The notes beneath the pieces are model-generated. The model searched no databases and had not been told where the DNA came from. It saw only the letters and a list, made by a program, of their open reading frames with translations. A DNA stretch of 39,033 bases. Origin: a bacterium (GTDB lineage: Bacteria > Vulcanimicrobiota > Vulcanimicrobiia > Vulcanimicrobiales > Vulcanimicrobiaceae). The stretch lies in NCBI GenBank assembly GCA_021845615.1, contig JAJZVP010000008.1:1-39033 (forward strand), given 5' to 3'. Positions 24,422 to 28,184 of the stretch are shown in pieces. Position 1 is the stretch's first letter. Every line of letters begins with the position of its first letter. Made by a program: the position numbers and the translations under genes.

Positions 24422-25212
24422 CGACGTTCGCCCCCTATATCGAGTACGCGCGCAAGGCGTTCGCTCGCGAGGCTACCTATCGCATCGAGCTGATCGCGGA
24501 GATCGGCTCGGTGGTGCTGCGCGTCTATCTGCTGCGTTCGTTGTGGACCGCGCTCTACGCTCATAACGCGGCGCCGACGGGACTCCCGCTGCATTCGATG
24601 ATCACGTACACCACCGTCGCGCTCTTGATGTCGCTCGTCCTCGAAGTCGATGGGACGCGCGTCATTCGCGAAAAACTCCGTGAAGGCGGCATCGCGGTCG
24701 ACCTCATGAAGCCCATCGTCGTCCCGTTCGCGTATTTTAGCGACGGCATCGGCCAGACGCTGCTCCACGCCGCCGCGATCGTCCCATCGCTGTTGTTCGC
24801 GCTCCTATTGGTCCGGATCGACGTGCCGTCGTTGCCGGTCCTCGCGATCTTCTGCTGCTCCTTGGCGCTCGGATACGGCGTGAATTTCTTCGTGAATTTT
24901 CTTATGAACGGGGTCGCGTTCTGGACGCTCGAAACATTCGGCCTGCAACTCATCGTTCGCTGGATCTCCGACTTGCTCAGCGGTCAAATTCTCCCGCTCT
25001 CGTTCTTCCCCGGGTGGTTCGGCCGCGCGGTCTTCGCGTTACCGTTCGCCGCGATCTATTCGACGCCGCTGCTCGTTTACGTCGGAATCATTCCGCCCGC
25101 GAAATGGGCCGCCGCACTCGCGGTGCAAGCCGCCTGGCTCGCGGCGACGGCGGGCGCGTCCTTCCTGCTCTGGCGCGCGGCGTCGCGACGCGTCGTCGTG
25201 CAGGGAGGGTAG
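24418..25212 (+). CDS. ABC-2 family permease (first subunit, COG4587-like)
   Basis: A 264-residue inner-membrane protein with about six hydrophobic segments. The N-terminal amphipathic part (APYIEYARKAFAREATYRIE) and the later MKPIVVPFAYFSDGIG and LPLSFFPGWFGRAVFALPFA match the ABC2_membrane_6/DUF990 family. It forms half of the exporter channel with the next gene. The GTG start overlaps the TGA of the gamma-CA-like gene, and five bases separate its stop from the next ATG. Cargo is not known for this family. Confidence 0.87.
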   Translation: MTTFAPYIEYARKAFAREATYRIELIAEIGSVVLRVYLLRSLWTALYAHNAAPTGLPLHSMITYTTVALLMSLVLEVDGTRVIREKLREGGIAVDLMKPIVVPFAYFSDGIGQTLLHAAAIVPSLLFALLLVRIDVPSLPVLAIFCCSLALGYGVNFFVNFLMNGVAFWTLETFGLQLIVRWISDLLSGQILPLSFFPGWFGRAVFALPFAAIYSTPLLVYVGIIPPAKWAAALAVQAAWLAATAGASFLLWRAASRRVVVQGG

Positions 25213-25217
25213 CGGCG

Positions 25218-26012
25218 ATGCTCGCGGCCTACGTGCAATACTGGAAGATCAATCTCCTCACGATCGCGGAATATCGCGCGGATTTCTTCATGTGGTTCGC
25301 CTTCACCATCGTCTATCACGGCACCGCCCTCGCCGCGCTCGCGGTGACGATGTTGCGTTTCCCGTCGATGAACGGCTGGAGCCTGCGCGAGATGTTTTTC
25401 CTCTACGCGCTGTGGATGACGGCGCACGAGTTGCACAACGCACTGTTTTTCAACGTCGTCTCCGTTCCCGAATACATCCGCGAAGGGCGTTTCGATCGCT
25501 TTTTCGTGCGCCCGTTCGACACGCTCTTTCAGGTGCTGACCGTCCCGTCGCGCACCTTTCCCGACGGGTTCATCCTCGGGCTCGTCACGCTCGCGATCGC
25601 GACGCACGTCGCCGGCATCCACGTAACGCCGTTCACGGTTCTTACGATCGCCGCGGTGCTTTGCGGCGGCGCCGGCATCGACCTCGGCATCTCGCTCTTC
25701 GTCGCCGCGCTCTCATTTTGGCTCATTCGCGTCGATACGCTGCGCTGGATCGTCATGTCGTTGGAGCAAGATTTCACGCGCTATCCGATCAGCATCTACA
25801 CGCGCGGCGTGCGCATCGTCCTCGCCTACGTGCTACCCTTCGCCTTCATGAATTATTTCCCGGCGACTTATTTTCTCGGAAAGCACGATGCGGCGTTCGG
25901 GCTCTCCCCGGAGGTCGGGCTTCTAACGCCGCTCATCGGTCTTCTCTGGACCGCGCTTTCGTATGCGTTTTGGAATCTCGGCCTTCGGCATTACCAGGGA
26001 ACCGGCTCTTAG
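25218..26012 (+). CDS. ABC-2 family permease (second subunit, COG3694-like)
   Basis: The partner permease, 264 residues with about six membrane segments. FDRFFVRPFDTLFQVL and FTRYPISIYTRGVRIVLAYV are typical of the second DUF990-type subunit, and PFAFMNYFPATYFLG matches the C-terminal conserved region. The ATG at 25218 is preceded by AGGGAGG. It closes the operon; its stop overlaps that of the convergent fusion gene, with no terminator hairpin visible. Confidence 0.87.
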   Translation: MLAAYVQYWKINLLTIAEYRADFFMWFAFTIVYHGTALAALAVTMLRFPSMNGWSLREMFFLYALWMTAHELHNALFFNVVSVPEYIREGRFDRFFVRPFDTLFQVLTVPSRTFPDGFILGLVTLAIATHVAGIHVTPFTVLTIAAVLCGGAGIDLGISLFVAALSFWLIRVDTLRWIVMSLEQDFTRYPISIYTRGVRIVLAYVLPFAFMNYFPATYFLGKHDAAFGLSPEVGLLTPLIGLLWTALSYAFWNLGLRHYQGTGS

Positions 26013-26830
26013 GGCGTGCGCGGCTCCATCGTCACGCTCGTCATCGTATCGCCGCGGCGGATCGCATCGAGCGTTTCGAAACCGTCGATCAACTGGCCGA
26101 AGACCGTGTACTGTCCGTCGAGAAAGCGCGCGTCGTCGAGACAGATATAAAACTGCGAGCCCGCCGAATCGGGATGCGAGGAGCGCGCCATCGCCAGCGT
26201 ACCGCGCAGATGCGGGAGCGCGCTGAACTCGGCCTTCAGGCGATAGCCCGGGCCGCCGGTACCGTCGCCGTCGGGGCATCCACCCTGAATGACGAAACCG
26301 GGTTCCACGCGGTGGAACGTGAGCCCGTCATAAAATCCCGCCTCGACGAGCTTTACGAAAGCGGCGGCGTGGTTCGGTGCGGCGTCGGCGTTGAGCGACA
26401 ATCGCATCTCGCCCTTCGGCGTGCTGACGCGAACGACGTGCGTACGTGCGGTTGCGAGCAGCGCGTCGCGCTCCTCGGCCTGTGGTGGCGTGGCCATCGA
26501 AATCCCCCCCTGGACGGCTCGTAGTACGGCGGGCGTTTCGATGACCCGATACCCAAAGGCCTCCGCCGTTCGCAACAACGCGAGTTTCTCCGCCCGCGGG
26601 AGCCGTTTGAAACGCGCCTCGGTCGACCGAGCGCCGCTCGCGGATTCCGCACGCCACCAAGCATGCAAGCGAACGGGGAGCGCCCGGCGCGTCGCCTTCG
26701 CCGCGCGGCCGCGGAGGTGGGCGCGTACGCGGCGCGCGAGGTCGTTGCTCCAGCCCGTGTAGAGTGCGCCGTCGGCACATTCCAGCACGTAAACGACCGG
26801 GTCCCCGTGCTGCGGGATTTGTCGCAGCAA
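26009..26830 (-). CDS. GIY-YIG nuclease domain fused to cyclophilin (PPIase)
   Basis: A single frame of about 273 residues joining two unrelated domains. Residues 12-85 are a UPF0213/YhbQ-like GIY-YIG domain: VVYVLECADGALYTGWSND, the catalytic Arg in RRVRAHLRG, and the late Glu in ARFKRLPRAEKLALL. Residues 112-273 are a complete cyclophilin: FYDGLTFHRVEPGFVIQGG, GTLAMARSSHPDSAGSQFYI, DGQYTVFG. No stop lies between them. A G7 tract six bases before an internal ATG (26497) could serve as ribosome site for a free cyclophilin of 162 residues, the normal size. The upstream start is taken as TTG at 26830; it is uncertain. The gene is divergent from the M28 peptidase with only 16 bases between starts. 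Confidence 0.8.
   Translation of the reverse strand: MLRQIPQHGDPVVYVLECADGALYTGWSNDLARRVRAHLRGRAAKATRRALPVRLHAWWRAESASGARSTEARFKRLPRAEKLALLRTAEAFGYRVIETPAVLRAVQGGISMATPPQAEERDALLATARTHVVRVSTPKGEMRLSLNADAAPNHAAAFVKLVEAGFYDGLTFHRVEPGFVIQGGCPDGDGTGGPGYRLKAEFSALPHLRGTLAMARSSHPDSAGSQFYICLDDARFLDGQYTVFGQLIDGFETLDAIRRGDTMTSVTMEPRTP
26504..26510 (-). promoter_or_regulatory. G7 tract: possible internal ribosome site and slippage point
   Basis: Seven G in a row on the coding strand end six bases before the ATG at 26497 that begins the cyclophilin part. The tract resembles a Shine-Dalgarno element and is also a homopolymer in which one base gained or lost would split the two domains. Confidence 0.5.
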
Positions 26831-26846: not shown

Positions 26847-28184
26847 ATGCTCGCACGATCGATCGCTTTCGCCGCCGCCGTTGCCGTCACCGCAACCGCC
26901 GCCGCGCCCTCCGCTTCGCCCGCCCCCGATCCTCGCATCCTCGCCATGGTGCGCGCCGTCTCGGCCTCGCACCTGCGCGCGATCGACGAGCGATTGGTGG
27001 GCTTCCGCACGCGCAACGATTTCTCGGAGATCCATTCGACGAAGACGCAAGGCGTCTTCGCCGCGCGCGACTGGCTCGTCGCTCAATTCAAAAAGATCGC
27101 TGCGACGACCGGCGGACGTATGACGGTTCGCCTCGACACCTACGTTCAGCCAAAACTCAAATTCACGCCGCGCGCGGTCACCGAATCGAGCGTGATCGCG
27201 ACGTTGCGCGGCACCGAACCGGGGCGTATCTACGTCATGTCGAGCCATTACGACGATTGCAACGGCAACTGCACCGACGGCCTCGGCGTCGCGCCGGGAG
27301 CGGACGATAATGCATCGGGCACCTCGGCGGTGCTTGAAGCGGCACGCGTGATGGCCGCCACGCACTTCCGCGGCACGATTATCTTCGCGTGCTTCGACGG
27401 AGAGGAACTGGGGCTTTGGGGATCCGACCATTTCGCCCACGAGATGGCCGCCCGGCACGCTCCCATCCTCGCGGATCTCAACAACGATATAGTCGGCAAT
27501 TCCAAGACGCACGACGGCCGCAGCGTTTTTCATACGCTACGCATTTTTAGCGAAGCGCTTCCCGCCGGCGCGAAACCACGATTGGTCAATCTTCTCGGTA
27601 CCGAGAACGACTCGCCTTCGCGAGAACTCGCGCGTTTTATCGTTTCGACCGATAAGCTCTATCTTCCGACGCTCCACATCCAAGAGATCTTCCGCGCCGA
27701 TCGTTTCCTCCGCGGAGGCGACCAAGAATCGTTCCAAGCTATGGGCTACCCGGCGATTCGGTTCACCGAGGCGAGCGAAGTCTTCGAACACCAACACCAA
27801 AACGTCCGCGTCGAACACGGCGTACAATACGGAGACCTTCCGCAGTACATCGACCCGCGCTACCTCGCACAATCGACGCGCGCCAACGTCGCGGCGCTGG
27901 CGACGCTCGCACTCGGGCCGGCGGCACCGACGCACGTGCATATCGTCCTCGCACACCTCGGCTACACCACGACGCTCCGCTGGCGCCGCGCGGCCGACGC
28001 GACGGCGTACGAGGTGTTATGGCGCAAAACCGATGCCGCGACCTGGCAACACGTGCGCCCGGTCGGCAACGTGACGACCGTGACGTTGCCGATTAGCTAC
28101 GACGACTACGTCTTCGCGGTGCGAAGCGTCGACGCGAAAGGGTTGCGTAGCGTCGGCGTTTTCCCCAGCCCGGTTCGCAAATAG
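26847..28184 (+). CDS. Secreted M28-family zinc peptidase
   Basis: A 445-residue exported peptidase. The signal peptide is MLARSIAFAAAVAVTATAAA with a likely cut soon after. The M28 zinc ligands are visible in SSHYDD, GADDNASG and DGEELGLWGS (Glu-Glu), and a further Asp and His lie in DLNNDIVG and FTEASEVFEHQHQ. The C-terminal about 85 residues (from THVHIVLAH) look like a fibronectin type III domain, with LRWRRAADATAYEVLWR. It should act in the periplasm or outside the cell as an aminopeptidase. ATG at 26847 is chosen over a GTG five codons earlier. Confidence 0.88.
   Translation: MLARSIAFAAAVAVTATAAAPSASPAPDPRILAMVRAVSASHLRAIDERLVGFRTRNDFSEIHSTKTQGVFAARDWLVAQFKKIAATTGGRMTVRLDTYVQPKLKFTPRAVTESSVIATLRGTEPGRIYVMSSHYDDCNGNCTDGLGVAPGADDNASGTSAVLEAARVMAATHFRGTIIFACFDGEELGLWGSDHFAHEMAARHAPILADLNNDIVGNSKTHDGRSVFHTLRIFSEALPAGAKPRLVNLLGTENDSPSRELARFIVSTDKLYLPTLHIQEIFRADRFLRGGDQESFQAMGYPAIRFTEASEVFEHQHQNVRVEHGVQYGDLPQYIDPRYLAQSTRANVAALATLALGPAAPTHVHIVLAHLGYTTTLRWRRAADATAYEVLWRKTDAATWQHVRPVGNVTTVTLPISYDDYVFAVRSVDAKGLRSVGVFPSPVRK

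Follow-up and report, generated by a model that had tools for sequence, protein, structure and literature searches.

The Locus and Its Two Domains

The window analyzed here, that is, the whole stretch of 39,033 nucleotides, is a contig of a metagenome-assembled genome (2.2 Mb, 81% complete) belonging to the phylum Eremiobacterota, in a genus coded here g1 of a family coded f1; records of Candidatus Eremiobacterota are among the named relatives of the locus. An open reading frame on the minus strand (26830..26009), which counts 273 residues from a TTG codon that is not conserved in relatives, encodes a GIY-YIG domain and then a complete cyclophilin, as recognized by Pfam. The GIY-YIG domain (PF01541; residues about 11-98, 26537..26800, minus strand) scores 34.8 bits against a curated cut-off of 22.6, with 52.9 bits for the corresponding protein of a split relative, and NCBIfam models returned no subfamily match for it. 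The cyclophilin (PF00160; 26012..26497, minus strand), 162 residues long from an internal ATG at 26497-26495, reaches 149.5 bits against a cut-off of 21.7 and covers positions 2-144 of the 159 in the model; cyclophilins are also the only entries among the best 50 matches of a fold search. AlphaFold predicts two fairly confident domains and a disordered linker at residues 99-111 (26498..26536, minus strand; pLDDT below 50), which coincides with the position of a putative ribosome site. A first-pass annotation had proposed that the two domains share one frame with a run of seven G at their joint, and both parts of that proposal are borne out by the Pfam matches and by the count of exactly seven G.

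The frame is flanked by a divergent gene for an M28 peptidase with a signal-peptide-like N-terminus (26847..28184, plus strand) and by a convergent gene for an ABC-2 permease (ABC2_membrane_6; 25083..26012, plus strand), both of which are found beside the locus throughout much of the family. The stop of the permease gene overlaps that of the cyclophilin, four bases (26009-26012) being common to the 3' ends of the two genes. A different arrangement is seen in genus g35, where the GIY-YIG gene stands head to head with a divergent gene for an RsbW-like anti-sigma ATPase (PF13581), their start codons overlapping inside one CATG (L015:1455-1458, L017:2332-2335).

Among 32 fused proteins, residues Y14, Y24-x-G26, R34, H38, and E71 of the GIY-YIG domain are invariant, and they include what we take to be its catalytic residues, namely the tyrosine pair Y14/Y24, R34, and E71. 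Equally invariant in this set are R174, F179, and Q182 of the cyclophilin, which form the catalytic arginine with its phenylalanine and glutamine in the motif FHRVxPGFxIQGG. Active-site residues are retained in both domains, for which nuclease and prolyl isomerase functions are putative. Because omega within the genus is 0.12 for the GIY-YIG domain and 0.055 for the cyclophilin, both domains are very probably translated and used. The sole other cyclophilin match in the genome lies inside a frame of 543 codons (G000:C23:12087-12482, locus L002); long frames of this kind are present in many relatives. Small single-domain GIY-YIG proteins of the present type are presumably those called UPF0213 or YhbQ. 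In comparison with this type, a lone GIY-YIG domain of ~90 residues, the window protein adds an in-frame cyclophilin at the C-terminus; in comparison with cytosolic cyclophilins (PpiB; PDB 2mvz, 1j2a), it has the complete domain with the same three residues kept in HRVxPGFxIQGG, while differing by its N-terminal fusion.

Fused, Split, and Single-Partner Relatives

When 99 genomes of the family were searched at the protein level, the locus turned up in nine of the ten genomes of the window's genus, the tenth being 61% complete, and all nine loci are fused in an identical frame. The same architecture, which the first-pass annotation had suggested seeking in related genomes, is present in 35 genomes from 19 genera of this one Eremiobacterota family, a count that leaves out genome G028, in which a run of N falls inside the gene. 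Outside the family, no fusion was found near the 80 best-kept cyclophilin loci, most of them from other phyla, a set that is not exhaustive over bacteria; in family f3, which belongs to another order, no GIY-YIG gene adjoins the cyclophilin.

Other relatives carry the two partners as separate genes. In the seven genomes of g32 the GIY-YIG gene ends with TAA or TAG immediately before the cyclophilin ATG, in a shared frame, and in g9, g38, and one genome of g13 an in-frame stop lies 3-21 nt before the cyclophilin start; in the second g13 genome, the two genes overlap out of frame. Within the sister family f2 the genes are adjacent with a stop between them, two loci being in the same frame and one not. 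Overall, split relatives retain the same start codon, with an in-frame stop 0-75 nt upstream, and are mostly in frame, except L049 and L155. The first-pass annotation had taken relatives with two separate genes as a sign against the fusion; such relatives do exist (g32, g9, g13, g38, and f2), but they mark the opening or closing of the pair in the course of evolution, not an artefact. Single partners occur as well: the GIY-YIG gene is alone at an M28-flanked locus in two genomes (L158 and L159), the cyclophilin is alone near M28 in L047, L050, L051, L055, and L061, and the GIY-YIG domain is found by itself, with about 90 residues, in relatives from g32 and g5.

The linkers of the fused loci span 42-78 nt and have little sequence in common. 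When mapped on the cyclophilin tree, their length has changed at least 16 times, each length being a multiple of three; for all adjacent pairs, fused and split together, there are at least 23 length changes versus 2 frame changes, where about two thirds of the length changes would be expected to alter the frame if this were unimportant. The comparison shows selection preserving the fused frame through many changes in linker length. These numbers bear directly on the notion that GIY-YIG nuclease and cyclophilin function as separate proteins, their fusion being a costless loss of the GIY-YIG stop. Such a notion would suit the lineages in which a stop lies just before the cyclophilin start, as well as those retaining only one partner at the locus; it would, however, predict a drifting frame, contrary to the scarcity of frame changes even among split lineages, so that we regard it as unlikely.

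In evolutionary terms, fused loci lie on both deep branches of the family in the cyclophilin tree, which is built on 160 columns and has weak deep support. The most likely history on this basis is that the gene pair fused early in the family and that several lineages afterwards either lost the GIY-YIG part or acquired a stop; given the few columns and the weak deep support, repeated independent fusion may be an alternative history.

The G7 Tract

The tract at the joint (26504..26510, minus strand) consists of exactly seven G and ends six bases ahead of the cyclophilin ATG. The same seven positions read GGGGGGA in all eight relatives from the genus, and the G7 of the window is therefore a single A-to-G substitution in a tract of fixed length. 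Three readings had been offered at first pass for this run: a ribosome site, a phase-variation switch, and a sequencing or assembly error joining two genes. The last would draw on the proneness of homopolymers to error and on the derivation of the window from a single contig of a metagenome-assembled genome, but eight separate relatives share the frame and have GGGGGGA at these positions, and fusion extends to 18 further genera, leaving it with virtually no probability. Phase variation or slippage is suggested by the presence of a seven-G run within a coding frame, but is very improbable: in the relatives the tract is made of six G followed by an A, and none of the nine genomes departs from the common frame. 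No uninterrupted homopolymer with variation in length was found, the length being constant within the genus, and the tract was accordingly rejected as a slippage site. Comparison favors the ribosome site, for a Shine-Dalgarno (SD)-like motif occupies this position across the family in differing sequences such as GGGGGG, AGGAGG, AAGGAG, and GGAGGA.

A Probable Internal Start within the Fused Frame

In every fused locus the cyclophilin begins with ATG or GTG, a codon aligned with the starts of free-standing relatives; since GTG would encode valine in the fusion, it is the start function that appears to be kept rather than methionine. A conserved start codon with an SD is thus found inside the open frame, as expected for an internal in-frame start. 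Six members of the family carry the anti-SD CCUCC in their 16S RNA, no 16S sequence having been recovered from the window genome. Compared within fused loci, SD pairing ahead of the internal start reaches a median energy of -7.6 kcal/mol, versus -2.1 kcal/mol for 122 further in-frame ATGs in these ORFs (the nominal p = 8e-12 overstates the significance, because the loci are related). On average the SD becomes weaker when the last seven linker codons are recoded synonymously (Stouffer z of -3.5 across 19 genera), with per-locus significance in two loci only, and a few fused loci have weak SDs (-0.3 in g20 and -2.1 in L017).

Within the genus, dS is 0.19 in the 22 codons before the ATG versus 0.90 in the GIY-YIG part and 0.82 in the cyclophilin. 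The most depleted window of 11 codons spans codons -23 to -13 (permutation p = 0.025, on related sequences), and the joint from -23 to +9 has 11 synonymously variable codons versus 22 expected, in a region that was picked after seeing the data. Taken at the nucleotide level, these comparisons show that the internal SD and start codon are preserved beyond the needs of the protein. A consensus scan of the joint found no sigma-70-type promoter; a promoter of some other type may lie there and could also account for the conservation of codons -23 to -13.

The same evidence weighs on the simpler proposition that only the long protein is made, SD and ATG being relics of a former separate cyclophilin gene. 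The retention of the frame through many indels and the purifying selection on both domains in one frame agree with it, and an old start would persist if the fusion were recent. Yet fusion is found on deep branches while, across linkers that share little sequence, no fused locus has lost the start codon and most retain the SD; the SD exceeds its synonymous null, and the genus offers a poor upstream start for the long form or none. We consequently judge this proposition improbable.

For the window's genus, a candidate hairpin may be drawn over the internal ATG. Its predicted 5' arm, GGTCATCGA (26538..26546, minus strand; codons -17 to -14), can pair with the 3' arm TCGATGGCC (26492..26500, minus strand), which includes the ATG, in nine of nine members of the genus, GGTTATCGA replacing GGTCATCGA in two of them. 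The predicted unpaired probability of the start codon in the genus is 0.02, as against 0.39 for synonymous recodings. A masking hairpin common to the whole family was rejected, the values in other genera being 0.50 versus 0.46 for recodings, and the candidate is confined to the genus, where no compensatory changes or covariation occur among the nine near-identical sequences. We infer that the hairpin would make use of the internal ATG depend on ribosomes arriving from the GIY-YIG part.

Where the Long Form May Start

As to the product of 273 residues proposed at first pass, its open frame stands but its upstream start is doubtful: only the window has TTG at 26830, and the seven relatives with a readable codon at this place all have TCG or GCG. 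Within the genus, no conserved ATG, GTG, or TTG was found between the start of the M28 gene and the GIY-YIG domain. An ATG stands 16-20 codons ahead of this domain in many other genera; its counterpart in the genus is ATA or ATC, closely followed by the invariant block CGACAAATCCCGCAG. Initiation of the long form may use a weak non-standard codon, and this would agree with the production of little fusion and more free cyclophilin. A start farther upstream, in sequence antisense to the M28 gene (ATG at -46, GTG at -30), is less likely, given that the M28 reading is intact and has its own start there.

Two further observations concern this region. Locus L035 has an open stretch ahead of the GIY-YIG domain without any standard start codon. 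A motif close to ATTCTACCGCAA-N12-AAAC, with nearly fixed spacing, lies at the 5' end of the GIY-YIG part in L018, L031, L034, L035, L049, L072, and L157, and is common to distant genera; read on the opposite strand, it resembles a promoter of the divergent gene (GTTT..., TAGAAT).

A Gene with Two Probable Products

The explanation that we consider probable, on the strength of sequence comparison, is that of a single gene with two products, a long fusion and a free cyclophilin arising from the conserved internal start. Ribosomes starting upstream would make the GIY-YIG nuclease, a short flexible linker, and the cyclophilin as one protein, whereas those starting at the internal SD and ATG (26510-26495) would make the free cyclophilin of 162 residues; in the genus of the window, a ribosome crossing the GIY-YIG part would also open the hairpin over the internal ATG. 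We infer that both products are made, the free cyclophilin being the main one. More tentative, and in our estimate rather doubtful, is the fuller scenario in which the fused frame, the internal ribosome site, and the genus hairpin are under joint selection, with a non-standard start for the long form and a fusion kept for the age of the family.

Bacterial genes with two in-frame starts and N-terminal proteoforms are known, as for infB with its IF2 alpha and beta, clpB, and cheA; the likeness lies in the single frame, the downstream start with its own SD, and the sharing of the C-terminus by the products (PMC11005335). Unlike in these genes, the N-terminal part is here a whole unrelated enzyme domain and the short product a whole cyclophilin, relatives of the window locus carry two separate genes, and the dual products are predicted. 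To our knowledge, there is no link between GIY-YIG nuclease and cyclophilin of the kind that binds Cas11b to its parent. Cas11b is translated from an internal methionine within cas8 and is a subunit of the complex of its parent, resembling the predicted case here as a functional separate protein from the internal start of a larger gene (PMC11899642). Translationally coupled pairs use termination-reinitiation, a type matched by the TAAATG and TAGATG junctions of the same two genes in g32 (PMC10666635); it cannot operate at the window locus, because there is no stop there. The mechanism is therefore already known, and what is new is the combination of partners together with the preserved series from split to fused forms. 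Among the papers searched, none joins GIY-YIG and cyclophilin in one protein, and the two naming both appear unrelated, judging from title and abstract.

Fusions are usually taken as evidence for one joined product, and a single annotation of 273 residues can hide a conserved second one. Since one family presents the pair with a stop, the fused form with an internal start, and the single partners, the step from operon to fusion can be studied within it. Were the fuller scenario of joint selection true, the fused form would serve some separate purpose, for instance as a nuclease tethered to a folding catalyst.
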